A stretch of 64,000 nucleotides of DNA, taken from the NCBI RefSeq assembly GCF_003340345.1, contig NZ_PPTQ01000007.1:62001-126000 (forward strand), read 5' to 3'. Position 1 is the first letter of the stretch. Every line of letters begins with the position of its first letter. This document shows positions 11,819-29,476 of this stretch, in pieces. Position numbers and translations under genes: made by a program. Under the pieces are notes generated by a model. The model made no database searches, was not told the DNA's origin, and saw nothing but the letters and a program-made list of their open reading frames with translations. This DNA is from Paraeggerthella hongkongensis (GTDB taxonomy: Bacteria; Actinomycetota; Coriobacteriia; Coriobacteriales; Eggerthellaceae).

Positions 11819-11841
11819 CGCACGGCGGGAGGCGGTCGGCC

Positions 11842-12831: not shown

Positions 12832-12903
12832 CCTGTCGTTTCAAGCGTTTCGGAGTACGGAAAAAGCGTTTTCGGGGAGAAACGAGGAGGTCCTTTCGTT
12901 ATT

Positions 12904-12923
12904 GTTAGTTTTAGTTAACTAAC
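12904..12923 (+). promoter_or_regulatory. Iron-box-like palindrome upstream of the ECF module
   Basis: GTTAGTTTTAGTTAACTAAC has perfect 7-bp arms around a 6-bp centre and resembles the other DtxR-like sites in the window, closest to 50526-50541. It lies 37 bp before the S-component gene. Confidence 0.7.
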
Positions 12924-12960
12924 AAGCGGCACGTCCGCGTATCGACGATAGGAGAATGCG

Positions 12961-13572: not shown

Positions 13573-13621
13573 CCGCTCGTCCAAAAGGGCGATTGCGGAA
13601 TCCCGAAGATAGGAGCGTTTG

Positions 13622-14356
13622 GTGGATCAGTCTTTCGTCTTGGCGAGTCCCGCCTGCATCAGGTACATCGATCCGCGCGTGAAGCTCGTGCACGTTGCGA
13701 TTGCCGGTGTTTTGCTGTTCGTGGTGCGGTCTACCGGGGGAATCTTGCTCAGCGATGCGTTCATGGTCGTCGCGCTGCTGTTCTTCGGATTGTACGGCTG
13801 CGCCGCGAGGCTGATTGCCGTTACGGGCGCGTTGCTGGCGGCTTCGCTTCTGCTTGCGAGCGTTCCCGGTGCGGTTGCGGCTGCAGCGGGCATGTCCGTT
13901 TTCATATTCTTCAAGTTCACGCCCCTTGCCGGCGTGTACTTCATGATGACGAAAAGCGTCAGCCCGAGCGAATTGGCGAACGCGCTCGAACGGCTCAGGC
14001 TGCCGCGCGCCCTTACCATCACGCTTGCCGTGACGCTTCGCTTCCTTCCCACGATCGGGCAGGAAGTGGGGGCCATGCGCGACTCCATGAGGATACGCAA
14101 CATTCCCTTGACGGTTCTCAACGTGCTCAAAGCTCCCTTGACCATGATGGAGTTCGTTATGGTTCCTCTTATGATGCGGTTCGTCAAGGTGGCCGAGGAG
14201 CTTGCTGCTGCGGCTTGCGTACGCGGTATCGAACGTCCGGGCGTCAGGGGATCCCTGCTTGAGATGCGGCTGCGTTTCAGGGATTTCGCGTACCTTGGTG
14301 CGGTGGTGGGTTGCGCTGCGTTTCTAGCATGCTTCGAAAGCAGGATGATTTCATGA
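13622..14356 (+). CDS. ecfT: ECF transporter transmembrane protein EcfT
   Basis: EcfT couples the ATPases to the S protein. The 244-residue protein has several membrane helices and the charged coupling region around LERLRLPRALTITLAVTLRF. I prefer GTG at 13622, six bases after AGGAG (13611-13615), over the TTG at 13619, which is only three bases away. The gene overlaps the ATPase gene by 4 bp (ATGA), consistent with translational coupling. Confidence 0.9.
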   Translation: MDQSFVLASPACIRYIDPRVKLVHVAIAGVLLFVVRSTGGILLSDAFMVVALLFFGLYGCAARLIAVTGALLAASLLLASVPGAVAAAAGMSVFIFFKFTPLAGVYFMMTKSVSPSELANALERLRLPRALTITLAVTLRFLPTIGQEVGAMRDSMRIRNIPLTVLNVLKAPLTMMEFVMVPLMMRFVKVAEELAAAACVRGIERPGVRGSLLEMRLRFRDFAYLGAVVGCAAFLACFESRMIS

Positions 14357-15942
14357 ACATCGTTGAAATGGAGCACGTGAGCTTTTCCTATCAAGGTGCG
14401 CAGGGCGCAGCCTTGCACGATGTTGCCCTATCGGTTCGCGAAGGCGAGTTCGTGCTGGCCACCGGACGCAGCGGATGCGGAAAAACCACGCTTACGCGGC
14501 TGATGAACGGCTTGATCCCTCATTTCTTCCCGGGCAACCTGTCGGGCAAGGTGTTGGTGGGGGGAAGGGACGTACGCCAGCTTGCCACGTACGAATTGGC
14601 CGCCACGGTAGGGTCGGTGTTCCAGGATCCTCGATCGCAGTTCTTTACGACGAACACGGTGTCCGAGGTGGCGTTTGGCTGCGAGAACCTGGGTTTACCT
14701 TCCGACAGGATCGCATCGCAGGTCGAGGGTGCCTTCGCCGATTTCGCCATCGAGCATTTGAGGAACCGGAGCATCTTCGATCTTTCAAGCGGCGAGAAGC
14801 AGAAGGTGGCGCTTGCGTCTACGTACGCAATGGAGCCCAACCTGTTCGTCCTTGACGAGCCGTCCGCCAATCTTGACGTTCGGGCTACGCTCATGTTGGC
14901 CGACGTTTTGGCGGAACTGAAGAGGCGCGGGCGCACCGTCGTGGTGTCTGAGCATCGCCTGTACTACCTTATGGAGCTTGCCGATCGAGTAGTGTTCATG
15001 GAGGATGGGAGGATCGTGGACCAATGGACGCCCTCCCGGGCTCGTTCCCTTTCGCGGGACGAGCTGATGCGTCGTGGGCTTCGATTGTTCGATCTTGACG
15101 ATGTGGCGCCTGCGCGCGCTGGTTCGGCAGCGGCGGACGGCAGGGCGGGGCGTGCGGCGGGCGATGACGGCGCCGCGCCTGCATCTGCGGATCGGCGGGT
15201 GCAGGCGGATGTGCCCGTGTCGCCGCTTTTGCACGTGCGCGACGTGCGGCTGTCTTTTGGCGAGCGCGCTGTGTTGCGCGGCGTGGAATTCGATGCAGGA
15301 GGGCATGCGGGCGCCCGCTGCGCGCAGCGGGCGGAGGTTATCGGCATAACCGGGCCCAACGGGGCGGGAAAGACCACGCTCGCGCGTTGCCTTTGCGGTC
15401 TTTCGCGCCGCTGCCGCGGAACTGTAGAGCTTGACGGGCGCATGCTTCGTCGCCGGGCGCGCTCCCGCTCGATGTACTTCGTCATGCAAGATGCGGATTA
15501 CCAACTGTTCACCGAAAGCGTCGAGGACGAGTTGCGCCTTGGCAACGAGGACGACGGGACCCTTGACGAACGGGTGCGCGACGTGCTTGAGCGGTTGGGG
15601 ATGGCGTCGCTGCGAGGCGTTCATCCGATGGCGCTTTCGGGCGGGCAGAAGCAGCGCGTGACCATTGCATCCGCCGCTGTGAGCCCCGCGCGCGTTCTGC
15701 TTTTCGACGAACCGACAAGCGGGCTTGACGGCCACAGCATGCGCAGCGTGTGCGATATCGTGCGCGACCTTGCTTCTCGGGGGCGGCTCGTGTTCGTAAT
15801 CTCCCATGATCTCGAGTTTTTGGCGGGAGCGTGCGATCGGATCATCCACGTGCGCGACGGGGAAGTGACCGACGACTTTCTTCTGGTTGGACAAAACGTC
15901 GCTCGGCTTCGGTCGTTGCTGTTTCGCGGCGCCTCTGCTTGA
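14353..15942 (+). CDS. ecfA: ECF transporter ATPase, two fused ABC domains
   Basis: This 529-residue protein carries two complete ABC ATPase domains. The first has Walker A GRSGCGKTT near residue 39 and signature LSSGEKQK; the second has Walker A GPNGAGKTT near residue 333 and signature LSGGQKQR. A roughly 40-residue Ala/Arg-rich linker joins them. It therefore supplies both EcfA and EcfA' from one chain. The ATG at 14353 overlaps the EcfT stop. It is the last gene of the ECF operon. Confidence 0.93.
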   Translation: MNIVEMEHVSFSYQGAQGAALHDVALSVREGEFVLATGRSGCGKTTLTRLMNGLIPHFFPGNLSGKVLVGGRDVRQLATYELAATVGSVFQDPRSQFFTTNTVSEVAFGCENLGLPSDRIASQVEGAFADFAIEHLRNRSIFDLSSGEKQKVALASTYAMEPNLFVLDEPSANLDVRATLMLADVLAELKRRGRTVVVSEHRLYYLMELADRVVFMEDGRIVDQWTPSRARSLSRDELMRRGLRLFDLDDVAPARAGSAAADGRAGRAAGDDGAAPASADRRVQADVPVSPLLHVRDVRLSFGERAVLRGVEFDAGGHAGARCAQRAEVIGITGPNGAGKTTLARCLCGLSRRCRGTVELDGRMLRRRARSRSMYFVMQDADYQLFTESVEDELRLGNEDDGTLDERVRDVLERLGMASLRGVHPMALSGGQKQRVTIASAAVSPARVLLFDEPTSGLDGHSMRSVCDIVRDLASRGRLVFVISHDLEFLAGACDRIIHVRDGEVTDDFLLVGQNVARLRSLLFRGASA

Positions 15943-16013
15943 TCGGGCGCGGAAGATTCGGCGCGTCGTGCGACGAGCACCGAGTTTTGCTGCGGCCGAT
16001 AGTGATAGAGATG

Positions 16014-16227
16014 ACTTGCGCGCAAAAACCTGCCCTCGCTGGCAGGTTTTTGCGTTTAGGGGTCGTTGAGTCGGGCGTTGTTCCGGGCGTCGCTTCGCTT
16101 GCTTTTCGTCTTGCCTGGTCACGAAGCTGTGCTGCTGTGCTATGCGCTCGCGCTGGTTCGCTCGGCTGGATCAAACGACCGCAAACCGTCAAAACCTGCC
16201 AGCGAGGGCGGTTTTTCGCGCGCAAGT
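16014..16227. repeat. MITE-like element, copy A (terminal inverted repeats)
   Basis: About 214 bp bounded by ~40-bp inverted repeats: the left end begins ACTTGCGCGCAAAAACC and the right end is its complement with a few changes, both followed by CCCTCGCTGGCAGGTTTT. The interior contains TTGCCTGGTCA. A second copy, in the opposite orientation by its interior, lies at 56029-56256. No transposase is present. Short open frames through it are not convincing genes. It fills most of the 15943-16405 gap. Confidence 0.8.
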
Positions 16228-16308
16228 CCTGTTCGCGCGGGGAAGGGGCGCCCGTTCGCGCTTCGAACCCCTTGTTGTTCGGCTGCGATCCGACGCGTTT
16301 TGAAAATA

Positions 16309-16338
16309 GTAACCTTTAGCTAACAATTGAGGTATGAT
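16309..16338 (+). promoter_or_regulatory. Iron-box-like site and -10 element before the Crp-family gene
   Basis: GTAACCTTTAGCTAAC (16309-16324) resembles the window's DtxR-like half-sites. TATGAT at 16333-16338 is a good -10 element. The Crp-family start codon is 68 bp downstream. Confidence 0.5.
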
Positions 16339-16405
16339 GGAGCATGGACATGATGAACGGATGGGGGGCGAGGCAAGCTGAACGTGTGGTGAAGGAGGGC
16401 GAAAG

Positions 16406-17065
16406 ATGGCGGATCCGATTGACGTGCGACCTTTGAGCGAGTCTCCCGTGTTTGCCGGCATACCGATGGAAGAGCGTGCGTCTTTGATTGCGGATGCGAA
16501 GGGCATGCTGCGCCGGTACCCTGGCGGCAGTTTGGTGCGCCGAGCGGGCGACGGGCTTGATTTCTACCCGGTGGTCGTGTCCGGCCGCGTGCAAGCTTCT
16601 TTGCCGCAGGGCGGGCTGGACCGCATCGTGTCCCTATTCGGCCCAGGCGATTCGTTCGCCGAGGCCGTCGCTTCGTCTTTGCGGCGCTGTCCCGTTGACA
16701 TTCGCGCGCTTGAGGACACGGTGCTGCTGTGCATTCCCGCTGCCGGGCTTCGCGCCTGCTCCCATGCGTGGGCATCGACTTTGCATGGAAACCTCATGAG
16801 CGAGATGTCGAAGAAGGTGCTGGTCCTCAGTCGCAGCCTTGCGGTCTTGAGCGAGCCGCGCCTGTCCGATCGCGTTCTGGCGTATCTGGACACGCTGCCG
16901 CGCAATGCGGACGGGAGCGTGACCGTTCCGTTCGGGCGCAGGGAATGGGCGGCGTGCCTGCGCGTGGCGGACAAGTCGCTGATCCGCGAGCTCAAGGTCA
17001 TGCAGGATGACGGCGTCATCGAGGTGGACGGTCGCACGGTTCGCGTGTTGCGGCAAGCTCGCTAG
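16406..17065 (+). CDS. Crp/Fnr-family transcriptional regulator
   Basis: The protein has 219 residues. An N-terminal cyclic-nucleotide-binding-like beta domain (about 10-120; IVSLFGPGDSFAE matches the family turn) is followed by a helix (about 125-150) and a C-terminal winged helix (about 165-218, RREWAACLRVADKSLIRELK). There is no N-terminal cysteine cluster like that of Fnr. The start is supported by GAAGGAGGG. The gene is flanked on both sides by iron-box-like sites and precedes the NEAT-like genes, so it may help control them; its ligand is unknown. Confidence 0.85.
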   Translation: MADPIDVRPLSESPVFAGIPMEERASLIADAKGMLRRYPGGSLVRRAGDGLDFYPVVVSGRVQASLPQGGLDRIVSLFGPGDSFAEAVASSLRRCPVDIRALEDTVLLCIPAAGLRACSHAWASTLHGNLMSEMSKKVLVLSRSLAVLSEPRLSDRVLAYLDTLPRNADGSVTVPFGRREWAACLRVADKSLIRELKVMQDDGVIEVDGRTVRVLRQAR

Positions 17066-17139
17066 AGGGGGTGGCGGCCCCAGCTCGTCGGCTGCAAATC
17101 GCCTTTCCCATTCTTGGCGGGCATACCTTCTCAAAAAAA

Positions 17140-17193
17140 GTTATACAAAGGTAACATAGATCACTGACAAGGGGATTTCGCACTGCGTATACT
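17140..17193 (+). promoter_or_regulatory. Regulatory site and promoter upstream of the NEAT-like genes
   Basis: GTTATACAAAGGTAAC (17140-17155) resembles the reverse complement of the site at 16309-16324. It is followed by CTGACA (17164-17169) and TATACT (17188-17193), an 18-bp-spaced promoter. Transcription would start near 17200, leaving a ~250-nt leader before the next gene. Whether the site belongs to DtxR or to the Crp-family protein is open. Confidence 0.5.
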
Positions 17194-17287
17194 GCGCTCA
17201 TGCGGATTGCCGAATGCCTGCCAACAACAGGTGGGCGAGGGTTGACGCGCTGCGCCGAGGGATGGTTCCGGTCGGGCGGTGCGATGG

Positions 17288-17316
17288 AGCTGCAGGGCAA
17301 GAACTTGCAGCTTTTA
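17288..17316 (+). terminator. Possible weak terminator or attenuator in the leader
   Basis: AGCTGCA (17288-17294) pairs with TGCAGCT (17306-17312), followed by a short T run. It lies between the promoter at ~17190 and the iron-box-like site at 17329, so it could end a short transcript. The stem is only 7 bp. Confidence 0.35.
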
Positions 17317-17328
17317 AAATACCCTGAA

Positions 17329-17347
17329 GTTAGCCTTGGTTAATTAA
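17329..17347 (+). promoter_or_regulatory. Iron-box-like site before the Tat-exported NEAT-like gene
   Basis: Read on the minus strand the site contains AAGGCTAACTT, matching the core of the DtxR consensus; on the plus strand it is GTTAGCCTTGGTTAAT. It lies about 105 bp before the start codon at 17452. Confidence 0.55.
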
Positions 17348-17451
17348 ATACGGCAACCGCGCATGAAGGTCCCCCGTGGAGCGGGCGGAGCGCATGCCGC
17401 CCGCTTGCGAACGCGAAGCGATAGAGCCAGTTCAGTGAAAGGATAGGCAAC

Positions 17452-18084
17452 ATGACCGAGATACGCGAAGGCATGCAGGATGCGTCCTTGTCACGCCGCG
17501 ACTTCCTCAAGGCGGCAGCAGGTGCCGCCGTTGTCGCAGCGGCGGCGGGCGTGGCGCTGCCGGACATCAACGCGAGCAAGGCGTTTGCGGCAAGTGCGGT
17601 GCCGCTGTCGGGCGCTTATGCGGCACCGGGCACTTACACGGTGACGGCGAACTTGTACGTGGACAAGCGCGATTCGCCTATCGGCAAGAACGCGTACGTC
17701 ACGAATCCGGGAAACCCGCCCTTCAACAAGCCCACTTCGCCCGTTGCGAACAATGCGACGCTCGTGGTGGTCGAGGGCGGTGCGAAGCTCTTGACCGTAC
17801 CCATTGTGAACAGCTCGTTCGGCGTATTGGAGATCGCTTCGGCCTCGCAAGACGGCCTGGTGCGCATCACCGAGAAGAAGATGGGGAAGTGGGTCATGCC
17901 GAACTTCCTGTGGTCTTCTCCTTACGACGAGCGCGTTGTCTCGCTGACGTTCGACGTGACGAACTTCGCCGGCGGCTCGGCGGTCGCGACGTTCGGCCCT
18001 TCGGCCGAGTACGCATCGTTTCCCCTGTACAAGGGACGCAAGACTTGGGATCTGCATCTTGTTGCCGATTTGGGCGCTGCGTAA
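17452..18084 (+). CDS. Tat-exported protein with one NEAT-like domain
   Basis: The protein has 210 residues. Residues 1-47 are a twin-arginine signal (SRRDFLKAAAGAAVVAAAAG), so it is exported folded. One domain follows (about 56-200) beginning APGTYTVTANLYVDK and containing NNATLVVVEGGAKLLTVPIV. That pattern (GTYTV start, NA-LVV, then a valine-rich strand) resembles iron-regulated NEAT haem-binding domains, and related repeats occur three times in the next gene. The NEAT assignment is by pattern and iron-box context, not by proven homology. A terminator-like hairpin separates it from the next gene. Confidence 0.75.
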   Translation: MTEIREGMQDASLSRRDFLKAAAGAAVVAAAAGVALPDINASKAFAASAVPLSGAYAAPGTYTVTANLYVDKRDSPIGKNAYVTNPGNPPFNKPTSPVANNATLVVVEGGAKLLTVPIVNSSFGVLEIASASQDGLVRITEKKMGKWVMPNFLWSSPYDERVVSLTFDVTNFAGGSAVATFGPSAEYASFPLYKGRKTWDLHLVADLGAA

Positions 18085-18100
18085 CGTTCCCTATGCGCTG

Positions 18101-18134
18101 AAGCCGGCTGCTGCATCTGCGGCAGCCGGCTTTT
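18101..18134 (+). terminator. Intrinsic terminator after the NEAT-like gene
   Basis: AAGCCGGCTGC (18101-18111) pairs perfectly with GCAGCCGGCTT (18122-18132) and runs into TTTT. It probably reduces, rather than abolishes, read-through into the large surface-protein gene. Confidence 0.8.
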
Positions 18135-18236
18135 CGAGGTTCCGTGACAGGTGCGCTTGGCGCTGGAGGCGCTGCGCGAACGGCCTGCATCGCGGTTGAT
18201 CGCACGTTGCATGAAACAGAAACGAGGAATGAAACC

Positions 18237-21200
18237 ATGAAGAACAAGGTGAACAGAGCAAGCGATTCGCTTGCGGGCGCCGTTCTTGCCGTGCTCTTGG
18301 TCGCTGCGTTGGTTCTGTCGCAGACGCCGGCCGGTTTTGCGTACGCATCTGCGCTCGGGCTGGCGGACGCGCCGGCGCATGCGCAAGGCGCAGAGGCTGC
18401 CGACGCTGCCGAAGGCGGCGCCCCTGGCGGCGAGGGCAAAGACGCGGCTGCGGCGCCGCTTGCGGAGCGCAGCGGGGAAGCGGACGATGCGGCGCGCAGG
18501 TCGCTCGACCGGGTTGACTCGCCGGACGGGAGCGCATCTGCGAAGGATGCTACGTCTTCTTCTGAAGAGCGCGCACCGGACGCCGTCGAAAAGCCGGCAT
18601 CGACAAACGCGGAAGGCGAATCCCGGGAAGGGGGTGCGAGCCTTGCCGTCGTCGAAGGCAAGGCTTCCGGCGAGCAGGCGGGGCCGCAAGGCGAAGGCTC
18701 CGAACCGTCGCGGGCCGCGCTCGGCAGCGCGCAAGGCGAAGGCTACGTTGCCCCTCAGGGCGCGAGCAGCGCCGAGCTTGCCGCAGGAACCTATACGGTT
18801 TCCGCCAACGTGTCCATGATGACGCCGATGGGCATTCGCGGGTATGCGACCAATCCCGCGAACCCTGAAGGAATCGGCGGCCAGATGGGCGTTCCTGCTG
18901 CGGCCGTGACGAACGGCAGCACGTTGGTCGTGGCGGCCGACGGAACCAGAACGCTCACGTTTACGCTGATCAACCCCGTGTTCACGGTGCAAGCCGCAGG
19001 GTCTTCCCCCAGTGCTTCCGTGGTGGAGGCCACGCGGGTTCCCATCGAGCTGAAAAGCGACGACAGCCAGTACAACGACGATCTGGCCAGCGCCGGCATC
19101 ACGTCGCGCATTTCCACGGTTACGGTGGAGTTGAAGGACTGGAGCGGAACGTACACGCTCCAGGGCTGCACGGAGTACGCCACCACGTTGAGAAAGTCGT
19201 TCAACATCGACCTGGACTTGACGGTTGATCTTGCCAACGCCGTGCGCGTTGTCGAGGGAGATTTCTCGAAGACGTTCGTTGACGACGAGGCGCGCGTGTC
19301 GGTGACGGTAAACGTGGAGGAGGGTTCGTCGGCGTTCGAATCGATCCAATCCGCCGAGCTTTCGGCGCAGCTCGTCGAAGACGAAGGACGCCGCTCGGCG
19401 GTGAAGCCCGCGCTCGGTCGGCAGTATCAGAAGGCTCCCGACTTCAGCTTGCTGGACGTGCGCCTGATTTCGGGCGGCGCGGATATTGCGGTTGACGACA
19501 AGGTGAAGTTCTCCGTTTCGCTGCCGGGCGAAAGCGGTTCCGAGGTGTTCTTGCACAAGGGCGCATCCCTGACTGCTCTTCCGGCTGCGCAGGCGGACGG
19601 CTCCCTGACGTTCGACAGCGCGCGGCTGGGATCGTTCGTGGTGACTTCGGCTCCAGGAGAGGCGAACGTTCGGTGGCTTCGGTCGTACACGTACGCCGAC
19701 GACGCTTCGGGCACGTCGGCAACGTGGGTGACCAACGGCTACAACGAAGCCGTGAACAACGACGCGTTGGATATGGACAAAGAAGAAGTCTTGTCGAATT
19801 TGTACGAAAGGTTGTACTTGCCCTTCGTGGGCGCCGTGGGCGCTCGCGCGCATGACGGAGCCGCGGTCGATCAGGCGTTGGAGCTGGTGAAAGAGTCGTC
19901 CGGCTTCAGCGATCCCGCCATCGAGGGTCTGTACGCGATGGGGCTCCATGTCGACATGACCTCTTTGGGAAGCAACCGAGTGCCCCTGGCGGCCGGGTTC
20001 GTGTCGACGATCGGCAACGGCAACTGCGCCTTGAGCGGCACGCTTCCGGTAAGCGGCAAGAACGTGGCGATCTATCTGGTGGAAGGAACGGCGGACAAGC
20101 TGACCAGCGCGACCAAGGTCGACGCGGCTATCGGCGGCGGCACGGCGTTCTTCGACATCCTTCCCGTTGACGGCAACGCCGTTGCGAACCTTGACGGGCT
20201 GGACGGCAGGTTGCTCAACGGCGCGTACCTTCTGAACGGGCACAAGGACTGGATGAACTCGGAAAACGTGGCGTACTACGTGGCGGTGGCCGAGGCTCCT
20301 GCGAAGATCGAGAAGCCGACCCCTGCCCAGGGCCTGGTGTACAACGGGCAGGAGCAAACAGGCGTCGCTCCGGGCGAAGGCTATCGCGTTTCCCTGACAG
20401 GTTCGGCCGTTGATGCCGGCTCCTATACCGCGCTGGTCACGCTCGAGGACGGCTATACGTGGGCGGACGGGTCGAAGGGCGCTGCGACGCTTGCATGGAC
20501 CATCGGGAAAGCGCAGCTGACCGCCGCGTACCGCAGTGAAACGGTCGCTGCGAACGAGGCTCCGCGACTGTCCGTGGACGTGTCCGGGTTCGTGAACGGG
20601 GAGACGGCGGCCTCGGCGAAGGGCTTCGCCGCGCCGACGGTTTCCGCCCCGGCGTCTTTGGAAGCGGGTGTAGCGTACAACCTGACGCCTGTGGGCGGCG
20701 CGGCTGCGAACTACGCGTTTTCCTACCGCAGCGGCGTGCTGACGGTTGCCGAAGCGCAGGCTCCGGCGCTTGCGCCCGGCACGTACGCAGTGACGGCGAA
20801 CCTGTTCGTTCCCTCGTCTGAAAACGACATTTTGCATCTGACGGCCTACATGACCAATCCCAAGAACCCAATGGAGCCCGAGGGAAGCCCGAACTTCGGG
20901 ATTCCCACCGACCCGATGTCCGACAACGCGAAGCTCGTGGTCAAGGAGGACGGTACGAAGCTGCTCGAACTGGAGCTGCCGAATCCGGCGTTCACCCTGA
21001 TCGATTTCGGAACGCCGGCGAGCGGCGCGCAGGTGCTCGGCATCGAGCGCGACGGCAAGCCGTACGGCGCCAACGCGCAGGGCCGCATCGTCAAAGCCGT
21101 TGTCAAGCTGGACGGCAACGATCCCGTCTTGACGTTTCCCGGGAGCCACGTGTATGCAGCTCCCTTGCGCCTGGATAAAACGTGGGGCCTGTCGCTGGCC

Positions 21201-22166
21201 GTGGACTACGCCAGCGCCGTGAAGCTGTCCGACAGCACCGACCTGGCCGTTCCGGGCGACAACGGAGGCTCTGCAGGAGGCGGTTCCGGCGGGGCGGGCT
21301 CTGCTGGGGAATCCTCCGGCAATGGCGGCGGATCCGCAAGTGCGGGCGGCTCCGGCAGCGCGAGCAGCGGCTCGGGCAACGCTGCCAGCGGCGAGGACGT
21401 TCGGCGCGGCACGCTGGCCGCCGGCACCTACACGGTGTCCGCCAATATCTGGCTGAGCAAACAAGACACGGGGCTTCCGTTGAATCCGCATCTGACCAGC
21501 GGGGATTTCCCGCCCATGAACCCGGTGGCGCGCAACGCCGTCCTGACCGTCGATGCTGCCGGGCGCGCTGCGGTGCAGGTTCCCATCGTCATTCAGTCGA
21601 GGATCATGACGGTGAACGCCATCAGCGGCTTGCGTATCGTGGACTCCAGCTCGAACGGCGGCGGCCTGTCTTCGATCACGGTCGACCTGGGCGTGCTGGA
21701 AGACGCCGCTTCGGTGGTCTCGCGATCGTGCACGGTGGACGTTACCATCGGGGATATGGCCATGGCTATCGGCGGGTCCATCTTCGGCGGCGAGCGCAAC
21801 CATACGTATCCGGCTACGTTCCAAATGAACCTCTCCGGCGTGCCCGCTTCGGGCGGCGGCTCGATTCCCGCTGCGGCCCTGGCCGTGATGAACGGCTCGG
21901 CGTCGGGCGATGCGGCGGCCAATGCTGAAAAGGCCACCGCCGAAGCTCTGGCTGCGGCCGAGGACAAGGCTGCGCGCGCCAAGGCCAAGGGCGTTGCGAC
22001 GAAGTCGAACCCGGCGCAAGCCGAAGCCGACAGCGCTTCGGCCGGCGATCCGGCTCTTGCGATCGGTTTGGGCGCGCTGGCCACGTTGGCCGTGGCCGGA
22101 GCGGCGGCGGGCACGTTCGCCTACCGCAGGAAGCGCGTGCCTTCGAAGGCTAAGGCCCGCTTCTAG
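18237..22166 (+). CDS. Large surface protein with three NEAT-like repeats
   Basis: The protein has 1309 residues. Residues 1-40 form a signal peptide. An Ala/Glu-rich acidic stretch runs to about 175. NEAT-like repeats start near 182 (LAAGTYTVSAN), 844 (LAPGTYAVTAN) and 1059 (LAAGTYTVSAN), each resembling the single domain of the preceding gene. Between them lie Ig-like and MBG-like segments (about 695-840, GLVYNGQEQTGV) and a Ser/Gly linker (about 1005-1055). The C-terminus is one membrane helix and a basic tail (YRRKRVPSKAKARF) without LPXTG, so it is membrane-anchored. The ATG at 18237 has GAGGAA upstream. Likely role: haem or metal capture at the surface, inferred. Confidence 0.85.
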   Translation: MKNKVNRASDSLAGAVLAVLLVAALVLSQTPAGFAYASALGLADAPAHAQGAEAADAAEGGAPGGEGKDAAAAPLAERSGEADDAARRSLDRVDSPDGSASAKDATSSSEERAPDAVEKPASTNAEGESREGGASLAVVEGKASGEQAGPQGEGSEPSRAALGSAQGEGYVAPQGASSAELAAGTYTVSANVSMMTPMGIRGYATNPANPEGIGGQMGVPAAAVTNGSTLVVAADGTRTLTFTLINPVFTVQAAGSSPSASVVEATRVPIELKSDDSQYNDDLASAGITSRISTVTVELKDWSGTYTLQGCTEYATTLRKSFNIDLDLTVDLANAVRVVEGDFSKTFVDDEARVSVTVNVEEGSSAFESIQSAELSAQLVEDEGRRSAVKPALGRQYQKAPDFSLLDVRLISGGADIAVDDKVKFSVSLPGESGSEVFLHKGASLTALPAAQADGSLTFDSARLGSFVVTSAPGEANVRWLRSYTYADDASGTSATWVTNGYNEAVNNDALDMDKEEVLSNLYERLYLPFVGAVGARAHDGAAVDQALELVKESSGFSDPAIEGLYAMGLHVDMTSLGSNRVPLAAGFVSTIGNGNCALSGTLPVSGKNVAIYLVEGTADKLTSATKVDAAIGGGTAFFDILPVDGNAVANLDGLDGRLLNGAYLLNGHKDWMNSENVAYYVAVAEAPAKIEKPTPAQGLVYNGQEQTGVAPGEGYRVSLTGSAVDAGSYTALVTLEDGYTWADGSKGAATLAWTIGKAQLTAAYRSETVAANEAPRLSVDVSGFVNGETAASAKGFAAPTVSAPASLEAGVAYNLTPVGGAAANYAFSYRSGVLTVAEAQAPALAPGTYAVTANLFVPSSENDILHLTAYMTNPKNPMEPEGSPNFGIPTDPMSDNAKLVVKEDGTKLLELELPNPAFTLIDFGTPASGAQVLGIERDGKPYGANAQGRIVKAVVKLDGNDPVLTFPGSHVYAAPLRLDKTWGLSLAVDYASAVKLSDSTDLAVPGDNGGSAGGGSGGAGSAGESSGNGGGSASAGGSGSASSGSGNAASGEDVRRGTLAAGTYTVSANIWLSKQDTGLPLNPHLTSGDFPPMNPVARNAVLTVDAAGRAAVQVPIVIQSRIMTVNAISGLRIVDSSSNGGGLSSITVDLGVLEDAASVVSRSCTVDVTIGDMAMAIGGSIFGGERNHTYPATFQMNLSGVPASGGGSIPAAALAVMNGSASGDAAANAEKATAEALAAAEDKAARAKAKGVATKSNPAQAEADSASAGDPALAIGLGALATLAVAGAAAGTFAYRRKRVPSKAKARF

Positions 22167-22180
22167 CGTGCACGACTGAA

Positions 22181-22230
22181 TGCGAGCCCGTCCGCCAGTC
22201 GCGTCGTGCGGACGGGCTCGCAGCTCTTTA
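22181..22230 (+). terminator. Intrinsic terminator after the large surface protein
   Basis: A perfect 14-bp stem (22181-22194 with 22209-22222) is followed by the T-rich CTCTTTATTT. It ends just before the Shine-Dalgarno of the next operon. Confidence 0.85.
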
Positions 22231-22261
22231 TTTGAAGGAACGACCCGGAAACGAGGTAGGC

Positions 22262-23374
22262 ATGAATCTGACAAGACGCGCGTTCTGCGCGTTTGCGAGC
22301 ACGGCCGTAGCAACGGCGGCCGTGGGTTTGGCGGGCTGCTCGTCGAGCGGCCCCGATCAAGGCGATGCGGCGCTCGGCACGATCGACCTGGTTGCGCAGC
22401 CCGAAAGCCGCGAGCTCATGGGCAGTCCCGATGCGTGCACTGCGCGCGTCGGCTTGATCATGGGCCCGCCATCCATGGGCCTTTCGCAGTTCATCGTGGC
22501 GGCGCGAGCCGGCAAGACGTTCAACGACTTCCAGTTCGAGCTGAGCGGCGTGGACTACGTGGGCCTTTCCGCCGCGTTCAACCAGGGCAGCTACGATATG
22601 TGCACGCTGCCGTCCAATATCGGCCCCATCCTGTACAACAACAAGGAGCTGAAGAACGACTACCAGGTAATAAGCGTCAACAACCTGGGCGTGCTCTACG
22701 GCATCACCACCGATCCGTCGGTGGCTGCCGTGGACGACCTTGCGGGTCGCACGGTGTACAGCTACGGCGAAGGCGGCACGCCCGAGTACACGATCGAGGC
22801 GTTGCTGGGCAAGATGGGCAAGGCGGGGTCGTTCAACCTTGAGTTCAAGTCGTCGCCGTTCGAAGTGCTGAACCTTTTGCAGGACGAACCGAACTGCGCG
22901 GCCATCCTTCCGCAGCCGTTCGTGTCGCTTTCGAAGCTCATGGTGGACCCCCTGTACGCGCCTATCGACATCGCCAAGGAATGGGATGCGGCGTTTGCCG
23001 ACACGGGGAGCCAGGTCGTTACCACGACCACGATCGTGAATCGGAAGTTTCTCGAAGAGCACGAGCAAGCCGTGATCGAGTACCTGCGGATGGCGGGACA
23101 ATCGGTGGCGTGGTCGCTCGAGAACATGTCGGCCGCGGCCGCTCTGCAAGAGGAGCTGGGGACGTTTCTGAACAACGCCGTGGCGCTGGACGCTATGCCC
23201 CAGATCAGCATGGTGAGCTTGACGGGAACCGACATGCGCACGGCGCTTTCGGGCTTTCTCGAGGAGCTGTACCGCTCGAACCCCGACTGGATTGGCGGCA
23301 AGGTTCCAGACGACGGGTTCTATTACCTGCCTCCCGTGGGCCAGCTTGACGATGCGGGCAGCGCGGGCGTGTAG
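22262..23374 (+). CDS. ABC importer substrate-binding lipoprotein (NitT/TauT-like)
   Basis: The protein has 370 residues, with a lipoprotein signal (LTRRAFCAF... lipobox LAGC near residue 28) and a periplasmic-binding-protein fold resembling the SsuA/TauA/ThiY group. The following permease and ATPase genes are 3 bp away and overlapping respectively, forming a complete importer. GAGG precedes the ATG at 22262. The ligand cannot be read from sequence. Its operon continues into an activase-type ATPase, which is unusual for this transporter class. Confidence 0.9.
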   Translation: MNLTRRAFCAFASTAVATAAVGLAGCSSSGPDQGDAALGTIDLVAQPESRELMGSPDACTARVGLIMGPPSMGLSQFIVAARAGKTFNDFQFELSGVDYVGLSAAFNQGSYDMCTLPSNIGPILYNNKELKNDYQVISVNNLGVLYGITTDPSVAAVDDLAGRTVYSYGEGGTPEYTIEALLGKMGKAGSFNLEFKSSPFEVLNLLQDEPNCAAILPQPFVSLSKLMVDPLYAPIDIAKEWDAAFADTGSQVVTTTTIVNRKFLEEHEQAVIEYLRMAGQSVAWSLENMSAAAALQEELGTFLNNAVALDAMPQISMVSLTGTDMRTALSGFLEELYRSNPDWIGGKVPDDGFYYLPPVGQLDDAGSAGV

Positions 23375-23377
23375 GCC

Positions 23378-24625
23378 ATGGGCGAACGGCGATCGAAAGA
23401 GCTGCTGAGGCGGCTGGGCGTGCGCATCGGGCGGGCGCGCGAAACGCGTGATACGGGCGAGGCCCCGCGCATGCAGGTGGCTCAGATAGCGCAGAAGCTG
23501 GGCATGCCCGAGGACAAGGTTGCGCAGGTTGTGCAGATGGTCAGGGAAAACGGCATGGACGACGCCCAGATGGGCTTCATGATGAGAACGGCCGTGTCCC
23601 GCGGCGTCGGCAGAGATCAGATCATGCAGATGATGACCTCCATGGGCGTTTCTTGCCAGCAGGTGGTGCGCGTCATGCAGGCGCAAAGCCTCATGGACGA
23701 CGAGGAAGCGCAGCTTGTTTTGGAAGAGGAGCGCGCCGGGCGGGAGCGCGTCGTTGCCACCCGAGGCGCGTCAAGGCGCATCGCAGGGGCGAAAAAGGCG
23801 CTGATCGTGCTGTTTTGGCTGGTCGTATGGGAAGTGCTCGATCGGGCGGTGGACAACCGCTTGGTTCTAGCCGGTCCTGTTCGGGTGCTGGAGGCGTTGG
23901 CGGAGCAGGTGGCGAAGCCCGACTTCTGGCTGATCTGCGGCGCTTCCACGGCGCGTATCGCCGCGGGGTTTCTCCTGTCGTTTTCCGTAGGGTTGCTGTT
24001 GGCTTTATTGGCGTACCGTGTGGCCGTCGTGCGCGACTTCATCGATCCCGTGATGTCGCTTCTGCGCACCATTCCCGTTATCTCGTTCATCATCATGCTG
24101 CTTATCTGGGTGGGCAACCAGGCGTTGACCGTGTACCTGGCGTTCTTGATCGTGCTGCCGCTGGTCTACACGTCCACGCTTGCCGGATTCGAGAGCGTGG
24201 ACCGGCACCTGCTGGAGATGGCGCGGGTGTTCAAGCTGTCCAGATGGCGCACGTTCATGTACGTGTACCGCCCTGCGTTCATGCCGTTTCTGGTGGCAAG
24301 TTCCCGCATATCGCTGGGAATGAGCTGGAAAAGCGGCATCATGGCCGAGGTTCTGGCCGTGCCCAAGCCCTCTATCGGCAAGGAGATGAGCCTGTCGCGC
24401 ACGTACCTGGACACGCCCGATCTGTTCGCGTGGACGGTGATGGTCATGGTGCTGAGCTTGGCGTTCGAGAAGGCGTTCATGGCGCTGCTGAAGCGCGCCG
24501 GACGTCCGCTGGGCGGCTTTTTGGGCGTGCGCGACGACGAGCGCGAAGGGCGCGCCCGACGAGGGCGGCGCGACGAGGGCGGCGCGAGCGACGCGGGAAA
24601 GGGCGATGCCGCATGGACATCGTGA
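23378..24625 (+). CDS. ABC importer permease with Met-rich N-terminal extension
   Basis: Residues ~140-380 are a typical NitT/TauT (SsuC-like) permease with about six helices and the EAA loop around LLEMARVFKLSRWRTFMYVYRPAFMP. The first ~125 residues are an extra soluble helical region with repeated, methionine-rich units (KLGMPEDKVAQVVQMVRENG, then QIMQMMTSMGV). I know of no standard permease with this extension. The C-terminal ~45 residues are Arg/Asp-rich. It overlaps the ATPase gene by 13 bp. Confidence 0.9.
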   Translation: MGERRSKELLRRLGVRIGRARETRDTGEAPRMQVAQIAQKLGMPEDKVAQVVQMVRENGMDDAQMGFMMRTAVSRGVGRDQIMQMMTSMGVSCQQVVRVMQAQSLMDDEEAQLVLEEERAGRERVVATRGASRRIAGAKKALIVLFWLVVWEVLDRAVDNRLVLAGPVRVLEALAEQVAKPDFWLICGASTARIAAGFLLSFSVGLLLALLAYRVAVVRDFIDPVMSLLRTIPVISFIIMLLIWVGNQALTVYLAFLIVLPLVYTSTLAGFESVDRHLLEMARVFKLSRWRTFMYVYRPAFMPFLVASSRISLGMSWKSGIMAEVLAVPKPSIGKEMSLSRTYLDTPDLFAWTVMVMVLSLAFEKAFMALLKRAGRPLGGFLGVRDDEREGRARRGRRDEGGASDAGKGDAAWTS

Positions 24626-25212
24626 TGGAGCGCGTGGACAAGTCGTTCGGAGACGCGCGCGTGCTGGCGGGCGTGACGTGCACGCTTTCCGAAGGCGGCG
24701 TGTACTGCCTGATGGGGCCTTCGGGCGCGGGCAAGACCACCTTGCTGCGCGTGCTGCTGGGCCTTGAGCGCGCCGACGCGGGGCGCATCGAGGGCGCGAC
24801 TTCCGGCGCGGTCTCAGCGATGTTTCAGGAGGACCGCCTGTGCGAGACGCTGACGGCCGTGGAGAACGTGGCGTTGGTGCTGCCCGCGCGGGCCAGCCGA
24901 CGCCAGATCCGCTGCATGCTGGAGAAGATCCTTCCCGCGGATTGCCTGAAGCGCCCGGTGATGCAGCTTTCGGGCGGCATGCGCCGACGCGTTTCGCTGG
25001 CAAGGGCGGTTGCCTATCCCGGCAGCGCGATCGTGCTGGACGAGCCGTTCACCGGGCTCGATGGGCAAACCAAGCGCGCGGTCATCGAGTTCTTGCTGGC
25101 CGAGCGGCGCGGACGCACGCTTTTGGCGTCAACGCACAGCGACGAGGACGTTGCGCTTCTGGGCGCCCGAAAAATCATGTTAACCGATATAACGAAGGGG
25201 GCTGCGCGATGA
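24613..25212 (+). CDS. ABC importer ATP-binding protein (SsuB/TauB-like, short)
   Basis: The protein has 199 residues with Walker A GPSGAGKTT near residue 36, Q-loop FQEDRLCETL, signature LSGGMRRR and Walker B AIVLDEPFTGL. FQEDRLCETLT is typical of the nitrate/sulfonate/taurine ATPases. It is shorter than the usual ~250 residues because the C-terminus stops soon after the H-loop (STHSDED). It overlaps both neighbours and energises the preceding permease. Confidence 0.92.
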   Translation: MDIVMERVDKSFGDARVLAGVTCTLSEGGVYCLMGPSGAGKTTLLRVLLGLERADAGRIEGATSGAVSAMFQEDRLCETLTAVENVALVLPARASRRQIRCMLEKILPADCLKRPVMQLSGGMRRRVSLARAVAYPGSAIVLDEPFTGLDGQTKRAVIEFLLAERRGRTLLASTHSDEDVALLGARKIMLTDITKGAAR

Positions 25213-25418
25213 TAGACGCGACGAAGACCATGAAGCAGACGGTGCTGGACGAGCCTTTGTTCGGGGAGTTCCTGGTGTCGAAGGGGTTTCCGTTTTCACT
25301 GGACAACCCTATAGCCGACCTGGTGACGTTCGCCGACGTGGTGCAGGTGCGCCAGCTGGACGAGCGCGCGTTTCTGGCCGAGTACGAGCGGTATCGCGTG
25401 CGCGCGAAGGGGGAATAG
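25209..25418 (+). CDS. Small DUF1858-like protein (69 aa)
   Basis: The protein has 69 residues, starting with an ATGA overlap on the ATPase gene. Its layout (short N-terminal strand, LFGEFLVSKGFPF, then a helical part) resembles the small DUF1858 domain that accompanies redox enzymes, but it lacks the usual cysteines. Its place between an ABC importer and the double activase suggests a role in the same process. The family assignment is tentative. Confidence 0.65.
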   Translation: MIDATKTMKQTVLDEPLFGEFLVSKGFPFSLDNPIADLVTFADVVQVRQLDERAFLAEYERYRVRAKGE

Positions 25419-25427
25419 GGGGCGGGC

Positions 25428-28400
25428 ATGTACACCGTTGGCATCGACATCGGCGCATCGTCGGTGAAACTCGTGGCGCTTACGGACGCCGAGGAGCTTG
25501 CGTGGCGCGAAAGCCGCCTGCATCGCGGGGCCGCGCTCGCGTGCCTGCGCGATATGCTGGCCGTTTTGGCGTCCAAGCTGCCGGAGGGCGAGTGCGCGGG
25601 CTGGGCCGCCGCCGGATCGGGGGCGGCGGCGCTGCGGGGCATCGATCCCGCTTGCCTTATGCTGGAAGAAGTGCCGGCGGTGTGCCAAGGCGCGCAGCTT
25701 CTGGCGCCCGAGGCGCGCTCGGTCATCGAGATAGGCGGGCAGTCGGCGCTGTTCGTTACGGGCGTCGGGTCGGGGCAGGTGCCTCAGTTCGCCATGAACG
25801 AAAGCTGCGCGGCGGGCACGGGGTCGTTTTTCGAGGACCAGATGGAGCGCTTGGGACTTGCCCTGGAAGAGTACTCGGATCTGGTGGAGGGCGCGGTTTC
25901 GGTGCCGCGCATCTCCGGGCGCTGCGCGGTGTTCGCAAAAACCGACATCATCCATCACCAGCAGGAGGGCGCGTCGGTGCAGGACATTCTGCTGGGTCTG
26001 TGCTTCGCCATGGTGAAAAGCTACAAGGCCACCATCGTGCGCGGGCTGCCCGTGGCGCGCCCGGTGGCGCTTTCCGGCGGCGTTCTAGCGAACCGCGGGG
26101 TGGTGCGGGCGGCGCGCGAGGTGTTCGAGCTTGGAGAAGGCGAGCTTTTGCACGCGCCCGACCACCTGTTTTTCCAAGCGGCGGGCGCGGCGCGCGAGGC
26201 CCGGGCGCAAGGCGGGCGCGCGCTTTCCGGCAAAGACGGCTGCCGCCCCCTTGCGATAGGCGACCTTGCCGCGCGGCTGGCTGAGCATACGGTCGACGAC
26301 GACCTGCCCCGGCTGCGCGCGCTGCCGTCCGTGCCGGTCGAGGCGAGGCCCGGGTTTCGGCTGCGCCCGCGGCCCTGGTCGGCTTCGACGGGCGAGCCGG
26401 TGGACTGCGCGCTGGGAATCGACGTGGGGTCCACGTCGACGAACCTGGTGCTGCTGGACGCACGGGGCGCGTTGCTGGACGTGCAATACCTGCGCACGCG
26501 CGGCGACGCGCGACGGGCGGTGCGCGAGGGCTTGGACTCGCTTGCGAAGCGCCTGGGCTCCGCCGTTCGCGTGACGGCCGTGGGCGTGACGGGTTCGGGG
26601 CGCAGCATGATCGGGAAGATGGTTGGCGCCGATGCCGTACGCGACGAGATCACTGCGCAAGCGCGCGCCGCCGTGGCTGCCGACGCGCGGGTCGACACCG
26701 TGTTCGAGATAGGGGGCCAGGACTCCAAGTACGTCAGCTTGAAGGACGGGCGGGTGGCCGATTTCCAAATGAACAAGATATGCGCGGCGGGCACCGGGTC
26801 GTTCGTCGAGGAGCAGGCTGCGCGCCTGGGCATCGAGCTTGCCGACTACGGGCCGCTGGCGCTGTCCTCGAAGGCACCTATTGACCTGGGGGAGCGCTGT
26901 ACGGTGTTCGTGGAGACGGCCATCAACGCGGCTTTGGCGAAAGGTGCGTCGACGGCCGATGTGGCGGCGGGCCTGTGCTTGTCGGTGGTGCGCAACTACC
27001 TGCATCGCGTAGTGGGAACCAAGCCGGTGGGCGCCCATGTGGTGCTGCAGGGCGGCGTGGCCTACAACCCCGGCATCGTGGCCGCGTTCAAGGCGCACCT
27101 GGGCGACGCCCTTTCGGTGTCGCCGTGGTTCGCCGTGTCGGGCGCGGTGGGCGCGGCCTTGCTCGCGCAGGAGGCCGGGGCGGAGGCCACGGCGTTTCGC
27201 GGGTTCGACCTGACGCGCGCGCCGCAGGCTTCGAGGGCCGTCGACCGCGCGTCCGTCGAGGAGAATCGTCGGTTCTTTCGCAAGGTCGACGAGTTGTTCT
27301 TGGAGGGGTACGACGCCCGCATCGATCCGTCCAAGCAAACGGTGGGCATTCCGCGCTGCCTTATGCTGCACAAGCTGTTTCCCCTGGCAAACGCGTTCTT
27401 CAAGCAGTTGGGCTACAACGTGCTGCTGTCCGATGCGACCGATGAGGAAACGGTGCGCCTCTCCCAGCAGACGGCTCAAGGGGAGACATGCTATCCCGTG
27501 AAGCTCGTCCACGGCCATCTGGAGCAGTTGGCGCGGCGCGGCGTGGACTACGTGTTCATGCCGGCGGTGCGCACGATTCGCCACGTCTCTTCCAAGGTCG
27601 CGCACAACTACGCGTGCCCCTACATGCAGTCGGCGCCGATGCTGGCGGCCAAGGAGCTTGACTTCGAGGGCCGCGGCATTCGCCTTTTGAGCCCGGTACT
27701 GGACATGGATTTCGGGCAGCAGGCCGTTGCCGAAGCGCTGCTGGGCGTGGGCGCGCAGCTGGGAAAGGAGCCGCGTGAAACCGCCCGCGCCATGCTGGCG
27801 GGCGGTTTCGCGGTGCAGGAGTTCACGCGTAAGACCGAAGAGCTGGGAGAGCAGCTGCTGGGTTCGCTCGGCCCCGACGAGCGCGTGCTCGTGCTGATCA
27901 CCCGCAACTACGGCATTGTCGATCCGGCGCTCAACATGGGCATTCCCGATGCGCTCCTGGACCGTGGCCGGAAGGTGATCACGGTGAGCCATCTGCATGC
28001 GCATGACGTGGACGTGTCGCAGGATCATCCGGGGCTGTACTGGCCGTTCGGGCAGCATATCGTGTCGGGCGCGAAGCTGGTGCGCCGCGATCCGCGCCTG
28101 TTCGCGGTGTACCTGACCAATCACGGGTGCGGCCCGGACACCATGGTGAGCCACCTGTTTCGCGAGGAGATGGGCGACAAGCCCTACCTGCATATCGAGA
28201 CCGACGAGCATTCTTCGCAGGTGGGGGTCGTGACGCGCATCGAGGCGTTTTTGAACGCGATCGACCACTACGAGCCGCGCGACGAGCGCGCGCTGCCCCT
28301 GGCGGGCCGTCCGTACGAGGCGCCGCACGCGACGCTCGATGCGCGGCGGGTTGTGGCGCTGCCGTCGTTCGGGGCGTGGGGGCCCTTGGTGGGCGGCTGG

Positions 28401-29390
28401 CTGGAGGGGCGCGGCCTGCGCGTGGAATTGCTGGAACCCGACGACGCGGCTGTGGCCGCCGGACGTGCGCGCAGCGCTTCGAAGGAGTACCTGTCGTTCA
28501 CGGCGCTGCTGGGAATGTCGTTGCGGGCGGCTGCGAAAGCCTCGGCGGAACGTGCCGGTGCGAGCGGCTTGCAGCTGCTGCTGCCTTCGACGGAAGGCGC
28601 CGAGGCCGACGGGCAGTACGACCGCGTGATCCGCGCCGTCTTGGACGAGGAAGGGGCGGCCGACGCGAAGCTGGTTGCGCCGATCCTCGATCAGCTGCCT
28701 TGGTCGATGCCCGATCCCGAGGGCTTCTTCCTGCATCTTTTGGCCGGCGACGTAGCCTACGCGGCCGACCAGGACGATCGTCAAGAGGTGCTGGACGGGT
28801 TCCTGCGCGATGGCGTGACGTTCGAGCGCGTATGCGCCGCGGCCCGCCGAGCGGGGGATGCGGCCGAAGGGGGTTCGCGCCGCGCCCGCAAGACGCTTGC
28901 GCTGGTGGGCGAGTGGCCTTTGGTGTACGCCGACCAGCTGACGGGCGGACGCTGGGAGGGCCTTGAGCGCGCAGGGTACCGCCTGGTGCGCATGCCGCTG
29001 TCCGAGTACCTGTGGTTTCTGTGGCGCGATGCGCGTCAGCCCGACGAGCTGCTGGCGGCCTTCGCCGCGCAGATGGCCGAAGTGCACCGTTCGTTGGGCT
29101 GCGCCTCGCCGTTTTGCGCCAGCTTGGACGACCTGCGGATTGCGGCTGACGAGGCGCTGGGGGGCTATCGGGGCGCGAACGGAAGGTACCGAGCGGCTAA
29201 GGCGCGCTTGGCGGCGCGCGAGGCGGACGGCGTGATAGCGGTGTCGTCGATGTACGAGAACACCGGCATCGTGCTCAAGCTGCTCGACGATGCCGACGAC
29301 CTTGCGGCTCCCGTGCTGCACGTGTCGTTCGACGGCGCGCTCGACCAGGGCATCGACGAGCGCTTGCGGTCGTTTCTCTACTACGTGTGA
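25428..29390 (+). CDS. Double BcrAD/HgdC-type activase fused to DUF2229/HgdB-like region
   Basis: The protein has 1320 residues. Two ASKHA ATPase domains of the 2-hydroxyacyl-CoA dehydratase activase type start near 1 (YTVGIDIGASSVKL) and 327 (ALGIDVGSTSTNLVLLD). Each keeps the two cysteines expected to hold a shared 4Fe-4S cluster (ESCAAGTG/RCAVF and KICAAGTG/RCTVF). A DUF2229-like region starts near 638 (IPRCLMLHKLFPLANAFFKQ) with conserved QGETCYPVKLVHGH and NYACPYM, and an HgdB-like C-terminal part follows. Such proteins drive ATP-dependent low-potential electron transfer. Here it is the last gene of an ABC importer operon; the target reaction is unknown. Confidence 0.9.
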   Translation: MYTVGIDIGASSVKLVALTDAEELAWRESRLHRGAALACLRDMLAVLASKLPEGECAGWAAAGSGAAALRGIDPACLMLEEVPAVCQGAQLLAPEARSVIEIGGQSALFVTGVGSGQVPQFAMNESCAAGTGSFFEDQMERLGLALEEYSDLVEGAVSVPRISGRCAVFAKTDIIHHQQEGASVQDILLGLCFAMVKSYKATIVRGLPVARPVALSGGVLANRGVVRAAREVFELGEGELLHAPDHLFFQAAGAAREARAQGGRALSGKDGCRPLAIGDLAARLAEHTVDDDLPRLRALPSVPVEARPGFRLRPRPWSASTGEPVDCALGIDVGSTSTNLVLLDARGALLDVQYLRTRGDARRAVREGLDSLAKRLGSAVRVTAVGVTGSGRSMIGKMVGADAVRDEITAQARAAVAADARVDTVFEIGGQDSKYVSLKDGRVADFQMNKICAAGTGSFVEEQAARLGIELADYGPLALSSKAPIDLGERCTVFVETAINAALAKGASTADVAAGLCLSVVRNYLHRVVGTKPVGAHVVLQGGVAYNPGIVAAFKAHLGDALSVSPWFAVSGAVGAALLAQEAGAEATAFRGFDLTRAPQASRAVDRASVEENRRFFRKVDELFLEGYDARIDPSKQTVGIPRCLMLHKLFPLANAFFKQLGYNVLLSDATDEETVRLSQQTAQGETCYPVKLVHGHLEQLARRGVDYVFMPAVRTIRHVSSKVAHNYACPYMQSAPMLAAKELDFEGRGIRLLSPVLDMDFGQQAVAEALLGVGAQLGKEPRETARAMLAGGFAVQEFTRKTEELGEQLLGSLGPDERVLVLITRNYGIVDPALNMGIPDALLDRGRKVITVSHLHAHDVDVSQDHPGLYWPFGQHIVSGAKLVRRDPRLFAVYLTNHGCGPDTMVSHLFREEMGDKPYLHIETDEHSSQVGVVTRIEAFLNAIDHYEPRDERALPLAGRPYEAPHATLDARRVVALPSFGAWGPLVGGWLEGRGLRVELLEPDDAAVAAGRARSASKEYLSFTALLGMSLRAAAKASAERAGASGLQLLLPSTEGAEADGQYDRVIRAVLDEEGAADAKLVAPILDQLPWSMPDPEGFFLHLLAGDVAYAADQDDRQEVLDGFLRDGVTFERVCAAARRAGDAAEGGSRRARKTLALVGEWPLVYADQLTGGRWEGLERAGYRLVRMPLSEYLWFLWRDARQPDELLAAFAAQMAEVHRSLGCASPFCASLDDLRIAADEALGGYRGANGRYRAAKARLAAREADGVIAVSSMYENTGIVLKLLDDADDLAAPVLHVSFDGALDQGIDERLRSFLYYV

Positions 29391-29437
29391 GGAGCGGCTG
29401 CGAAACGCGCGGCTTCCCGGGCTGACCGCAGTCCTGC

Positions 29438-29471
29438 GACCGGCGGCGGGATCCAGGCCCCGCCGCCGGTC
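29438..29471. terminator. GC-rich hairpin between convergent operons
   Basis: A perfect 13-bp inverted repeat (29438-29450 with 29459-29471) lies between the activase stop and the stop of the minus-strand FtsX-like gene. It lacks a T run, so termination is likely but not certain. Confidence 0.55.
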
Positions 29472-29476
29472 GGGGC

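Follow-up and report, generated by a model that had tools for sequence, protein, structure and literature searches.

NEAT domains are tools for the handling of haem and occur mostly in Firmicutes; to our knowledge, every characterised NEAT domain acts on haem or on haemoproteins. In the Isd and Shr/Shp/HtsABC haem relays, a surface receptor is followed by a small shuttle, a lipoprotein and finally an ABC importer, the lipoprotein being of the Peripla_BP_2 family and the permease of the FecCD class. The SxxxxY motif of the 3-10 helix is found in 71% of NEAT domains, and the haem-iron ligand motif YxxxY is absent from the clostridial members (PMC4143258). Moreover, ChtD and ChtE of C. perfringens bind haem without these tyrosines, and Shp ligates haem through two methionines (PMC5026354). 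Two further groups of described systems are close to the locus reported here, namely the NitT/TauT importers and the ATP-driven activators of 2-hydroxyacyl-CoA dehydratases with the related double-cubane reductases.

Here we analysed a stretch of 64,000 nucleotides from Paraeggerthella hongkongensis (contig NZ_PPTQ01000007.1, positions 62,001 to 126,000; hereafter the window, numbered from its first base). Two of its exported proteins share a repeat that is likely of the NEAT fold, and both lie in a conserved cassette together with an ABC importer of another class and an activase-type enzyme.

Two exported proteins share a repeat

The two proteins, hereafter T and BIG, are encoded by the open reading frames given in the first-pass annotation of this DNA (17452-18084, 210 aa, and 18237-22166, 1309 aa). 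Their features are as follows.

17452..18084, + strand: T, Tat-exported protein of 210 aa with one predicted NEAT-fold domain (TIGR01409, BLASTP, AlphaFold, structural searches)
17611..18081, + strand: predicted NEAT-fold domain of T (AlphaFold pLDDT 88.1, pTM 0.85; NEAT top in Foldseek and VIA-align)
18237..22166, + strand: BIG, surface protein of 1309 aa with a Sec signal, three predicted NEAT-fold domains, an MBG domain and a C-terminal membrane anchor
18765..19250, + strand: D1 of BIG (BLASTP, Smith-Waterman, family HMM)
20538..20744, + strand: MBG_2 domain of BIG (PF18676, 35.2 bits against a cut-off of 25)
20757..21239, + strand: D2 of BIG (BLASTP, Smith-Waterman, family HMM)
21402..21863, + strand: D3 of BIG, the best conserved class (AlphaFold pLDDT 87.9; NEAT/Shp as top structural matches; alignment)

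It had been proposed that the two proteins leave the cell by different routes, and both signals were confirmed. T carries the twin-arginine signal SRRDFLK, with TIGR01409 above its cut-off, and a Tat signal is kept in 10 of 11 single-domain relatives of T; BIG has a Sec signal and ends in a transmembrane segment and a short basic tail without LPxTG. T shows 98% identity to its Paraeggerthella hongkongensis counterpart.

The repeat itself, said to occur once in T and three times in BIG, is real. In pairwise Smith-Waterman comparisons all four copies scored above shuffled sequences (64-182 against shuffle means of ~30), every pair exceeding the best of 500 shuffles, with narrow margins over that best shuffle for D2-D3 (64 against 63) and D1-D3 (74 against 66). 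BLASTP of T against BIG recovered the three copies at E values of 7e-17, 9e-13 and 7e-9. The motif reads GTYTVTANLYV...NATLVV in T, GTYTVSANVSM...GSTLVV in D1, GTYAVTANLFV...NAKLVV in D2 and GTYTVSANIWL...NAVLTV in D3. The domain as a whole covers ~150 residues and thus exceeds the motif that had been quoted.

A NEAT-type fold is predicted for the repeat domain

AlphaFold models of T and D3 were obtained with pLDDT values of 88.1 and 87.9 from shallow input alignments of 8 and 9 rows, made up of the window proteins and their relatives from related loci. With the model of T, the five best Foldseek matches were NEAT chains of IsdA and IsdC (E 0.016-0.031), and the first 20 rows of VIA-align were NEAT domains (Z 5.1-6.4, ~115/121 residues). 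With the model of D3, the haem protein Shp came first in Foldseek (E 0.13) and the first 17 rows of VIA-align were NEAT or Shp (Z 5.9-6.8). These matches span ~95% of the NEAT domain; all VIA Z values lie below 8, a range in which, as the tool warns, a common arrangement may suffice. NEAT or Shp ranked first for both models.

Profile-profile comparison gave a weak link to NEAT, yet one above shuffles and three control domains. By hhalign the repeat matched two sets of NEAT domains from its own bacterial family with probabilities of 35% and 70% (scores of 28 and 34.6), whereas 60 column shuffles reached at most 19-20 and none of three unrelated domains taken from these surface proteins exceeded 2.4% against NEAT; the two local NEAT sets matched each other at 94%. 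The D3 class alone showed no link to NEAT by this method (0.8-13%). Nor was the family linked to the local Shp set (<0.5%), a comparison that is insensitive because A4, a true NEAT set, reaches Shp at 93% whereas A5 does so at only 1%. The Pfam NEAT model PF05031 (gathering cut-off 32.8 bits) had no match in the window proteins at E values up to 1, and a single match, at E 1.2, among 43 family members. A full Pfam scan of the same 43 proteins returned scattered weak matches only (YtkA in 7, best E 0.007), and the domain profile had no meaningful match among PDB sequences (best E 0.25).

Because both structural programs, applied to two divergent sequences, and the profile comparison agree on one family, we consider a NEAT-type fold likely for this domain. 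The structural and profile matches therefore show that the first-pass guess at the fold, which was not an obvious one, was largely right. On the models, the repeat is a distant branch of the NEAT fold and not a set of standard NEAT domains. Like the Isd NEAT domains (IsdA, IsdC, IsdX1, Hbp2; PF05031), it is modelled as an eight-strand beta-sandwich, shows a colinear albeit weak profile match, and is found in a multi-copy surface protein with a single-copy partner. Unlike them, it runs to ~150 residues rather than 120, has a conserved Pro/Asn-rich loop between strands 1 and 2, lacks YxxxY and is missed by the Pfam model.

Distribution of the domain and its loop signature

A family HMM built from the four window copies (T, D1, D2 and D3) recovered 59 copies in 28 proteins from related loci, all of them in Eggerthellaceae except for one Collinsella locus. 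By alignment search, the domain is present in 17/395 genomes of Coriobacteriales, spread over three families; among genomes sampled across the phylum, 3/396 have it, all three of which are Coriobacteriales. Five genomes (G003, G008, G035, G042 and G130) had matches in one search that were absent from the alignment search and were not counted as carriers. Most loci pair a small protein that has a single copy with a large anchored one in which two to four copies are recognised.

The strand 1-2 loop carries the signature Y-x-TNP-x-NP. At one position of this loop a tyrosine occurs in 40 copies and a histidine in 17, which together make 57/59; the conserved tyrosine is residue 82 of T. D3 forms a well-conserved class of its own, in which a conserved histidine replaces the tyrosine of the other copies and the signature becomes H-x-T-x-FPP.

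T and BIG belong to a conserved eight-gene cassette

The suggestion that an importer lies nearby was borne out, in an order conserved across three families. The cassette runs from a Crp regulator through T, BIG, a binding lipoprotein, a permease, an ATPase and a 69-aa protein to a large activase-type protein (ACTIV). Besides T and BIG it comprises the following genes.

16406..17065, + strand: Crp/Fnr-family regulator, the first cassette gene in most loci (cNMP_binding and HTH_Crp_2 above cut-off)
22262..23374, + strand: substrate-binding lipoprotein (SBP), NMT1/SsuA-like, with a twin-arginine and lipobox signal (listed ORF start 22232)
23378..24625, + strand: ABC permease (BPD_transp_1, 65.4 bits against 26.4)
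24613..25212, + strand: ABC ATPase (PF00005, 89 bits against 25)
25209..25418, + strand: small protein of 69 aa (49-100% identity across related cassettes)
25428..29390, + strand: ACTIV, 1320 aa, two acyl-CoA dehydratase activase modules and DUF2229 (TIGR00241, PF01869, PF09989)

The order from T to ACTIV recurs in related loci. It also holds, over the extent of the retrieved loci, in two more genomes of another family that the alignment search added later. A homologue of the Crp/Fnr regulator adjoins the cassette in most related loci. Within the Eggerthellaceae, SBP orthologues (at least 49% identity) were found in exactly the 14/138 genomes that carry the domain, with no exception, whereas genomes without the domain have only SBP paralogues of at most 39% identity; a Fisher p value for this co-occurrence overstates the evidence because the genomes share ancestry.

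Two SBP orthologues score above the NMT1 cut-off (22.6-23.4 against 20.5), whereas the SBP of the window has no NMT1 match at E values up to 1; the solved sequence closest to it is 3hn0, named as a nitrate transport protein. The permease is of the nitrate/sulfonate/taurine class; its cytoplasmic N-terminal extension of ~130 residues is unusual, lies outside the Pfam match and is also present in orthologues. SaoP was discarded as a name for this permease, which scores 82 bits where the cut-off is 295. The importer thus resembles the NitT/TauT systems (SsuABC, TauABC, NtrB; SaoP) in the families of its binding protein, permease and ATPase, and differs from them in that all equivalog scores of the window proteins are far under the cut-offs, the permease is extended N-terminally and the genes are linked to surface proteins of predicted NEAT fold. 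These family names do not fix the substrate of SBP and permease.

The small 69-aa protein has no Pfam match; judged by eye, we take it to resemble DUF1858. ACTIV matches TIGR00241 in two stretches with 278.8 bits (cut-off 125.4), and the solved proteins nearest to it are ATP-driven activators that serve 2-hydroxyacyl-CoA dehydratases and related reductases. As in those proteins, there are two activase modules, each with a cysteine pair (127/166 and 452/491 here, invariant in all complete orthologues), and a DUF2229 region; cysteines 688, 730 and 901 are likewise invariant. In contrast to them, ACTIV is a single fusion of 1320 aa that lies inside a transporter cassette, and its HGD-D part is only weakly recognised (PF06050, 22.9 bits over 52 residues against a cut-off of 28.4; unlisted for the L053 orthologue at E values up to 0.1). 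From these families we infer a role of ACTIV in ATP-dependent low-potential reduction.

In L095 (G567), which belongs to one of the two genomes from another family, SBP, T and ATPase were each recovered by tblastn in several pieces, for which frameshifts in a decaying cassette or an assembly error are possible explanations. L086 encodes a diverged binding protein, a permease and an activase-type protein, with no BIG or T detected, and is possibly an ancestral form. Just upstream of the cassette (8197-15942), the window encodes two half transporters of the ABC exporter type, an AraC regulator similar to siderophore and YSIRK regulators, and the parts of an ECF importer (S component of the Trep_Strep/MptD type, CbiQ and a double ATPase). 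We set this group aside as apparently unrelated to the cassette, its AraC and ECF genes being shared with P. hongkongensis only.

Paralogous importers occur elsewhere. The same genome encodes a second binding protein of the NMT1 type and a second permease, accompanied by a separate Crp-like regulator (L076 8152-10722, G000:C2), adjoining a P-loop GTPase-like gene and another ATPase. In L079 (4586-10624), a paralogous importer lies directly downstream of genes that by eye resemble subunits of a hydrogenase or of an NADH-ferredoxin redox enzyme, hinting that this class of importer serves redox metabolism.

A proposed model of capture, relay and reduction

On balance, we favour a reading of the eight genes as an uptake system in which NEAT-fold proteins capture and relay a ligand that is reduced inside the cell. 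BIG, anchored C-terminally in the membrane, would display its three NEAT-fold domains and catch the ligand at the surface, and T would carry it on its single domain across the wall space to the lipoprotein SBP. The NMT1-type ABC transporter would then bring the ligand in, where cytoplasmic ACTIV would pass ATP-driven low-potential electrons onto it or onto a product made from it, with the Crp-family regulator presumably governing the cassette. The repeat family, its predicted NEAT-like fold, the conserved gene order and the co-occurrence are what the analysis shows; that a ligand is bound, which way it travels and that it is reduced are what we infer. Where the cassette is split, a palindrome common to the separate T and BIG or SBP loci (see below) also speaks for one system. 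We know of no precedent for a hand-over from a T-like shuttle to an NMT1-type binding protein.

The logic would be that of the Isd and Shr/Shp/HtsABC relays, with a multi-domain receptor and a single-domain partner that are conserved together. In contrast to those relays, the cassette combines an NMT1/SsuA-like binding protein with a BPD_transp_1 permease instead of Peripla_BP_2 with FecCD, and has a Tat-exported shuttle, an activase-type enzyme and an adjacent Crp-family gene. We do not regard it as a member of either relay family because its importer class differs and the NEAT sequence cut-off and motif tests came out negative.

Alternatively, the repeats may be structural or adhesive immunoglobulin-like units that keep BIG at a distance from the wall or attach to a host polymer, with the importer genes merely co-regulated. 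The MBG domain and the long low-complexity linkers of BIG are indeed typical of surface adhesins, and the fold scores are modest. However, many genomes produce one copy on its own as a soluble Tat protein, the copies are tied to one importer with no exception in 138 genomes, and the control surface domains do not match NEAT; we therefore hold this explanation to be improbable.

Haem as a candidate ligand

As for the cargo of the capture-and-relay importer, the first-pass annotation had proposed haem, which the analysis did not support. Beyond the missing PF05031 match, YxxxY occurs in 0/59 copies (1/15 of local canonical NEAT domains), SxxxxY in 9/59 against 11/15, and the importer is of the NMT1/NitT-TauT and not the FecCD class. 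Moreover, the haem-lip region of NEAT domains (PMC4143258) is replaced in the window family by a longer loop with its own signature. Elsewhere in the same genome lies the following operon.

L062 7024-12169 (G000:C23): canonical haem-type NEAT-Shp-FecCD operon

It encodes NEAT (59 bits), Shp (167 bits), Peripla_BP_2, FecCD and ATPase proteins. A canonical NEAT gene is commoner in genomes with the cassette (8/14) than in those without (5/124), a difference that is confounded by kinship.

In a haem relay, BIG would take haem from host or dietary haemoproteins, T would shuttle it and the adjacent ABC transporter would import it, as a second route beside the canonical operon and with the tyrosine or histidine of the strand 1-2 loop as iron ligand. 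The predicted NEAT fold of T and D3, the Tyr/His in 57/59 loops, the enrichment of canonical NEAT genes in cassette genomes and the published haem binding by NEAT proteins devoid of the classical tyrosines (PMC5026354) all speak for such a route. Against it stand the absence of YxxxY and scarcity of SxxxxY, an importer outside the FecCD class, the complete NEAT-Shp-FecCD operon already in the genome, the lack of any haem oxygenase-like gene seen in the cassette and the kinship behind the enrichment. We consider this relay rather unlikely as a whole: of the original proposal, the NEAT fold, the export routes and the nearby importer stood, whilst the specificity for haem did not, given the motifs, PF05031, the importer class and the separate haem operon.

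Haem thus remains a tentative candidate for the cargo of the cassette. For the capture-and-relay importer that we favour, the most likely ligand is a tetrapyrrole akin to haem or some other flat aromatic molecule, because all characterised NEAT domains that we know of work on haem or haemoproteins. It is also conceivable, if doubtful, that gut Coriobacteriia have reused the NEAT fold for a non-haem ligand, passed from a Tat shuttle to an NMT1-type ABC transporter and on to an ATP-driven iron-sulfur reductase; if true, the cassette would amount to an entire, still unnamed route by which a small molecule is taken up and reduced. The cassette would accordingly place a divergent, unannotated branch of NEAT in human gut Actinobacteria, as a new haem route or as the first NEAT-fold receptor for other cargo. 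In every case this branch goes with one importer, and in most with one ATP-driven redox enzyme; either reading would give a function to a gene set left blank by current databases.

A palindrome upstream of cassette genes

Lastly, we sought regulatory elements. An Rfam scan of 16000-29500 found no riboswitch. Several relatives have a near-perfect palindrome, TGTTGCNNNNGCAACA, upstream of T or BIG, and the window has a degenerate counterpart that is not significant alone.

17150..17165, no strand assigned: degenerate operator-like site GGTAACATAGATCACT

In G026, one contig has T and another the transporter genes, and TGTTGCNNNNGCAACA occurs at both. In G038 the palindrome is found at the distant T and at a contig-end gene which, judged by eye and with no database match, we take to be the start of BIG; another site lies ~680 bases upstream of genes that by eye are cytochrome c nitrite reductase-like (nrfA/nrfH-like). 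G047 has two sites genome-wide, one before the cassette and the other before a paralogous binding protein. The palindrome resembles the published HcpR2 box GTAACnnnnGTTAC (PMC1274295).

This likeness, together with the site upstream of the nitrite reductase-like genes in one relative, could mean that T and BIG report redox or nitrogen-oxide status to a Crp-controlled cassette and deliver no cargo. Such a sensing role seems highly improbable, as BIG has a short basic tail and no signal-transducing cytoplasmic part, and a full ABC importer accompanies both proteins.

The site ~680 bases upstream of nrfA/nrfH-like genes is at L088 7149, that upstream of a paralogous binding protein at L092 6872, and one with an imperfect centre lies beside a hybrid-cluster-protein-like gene at L091 5399 (genes identified by eye).
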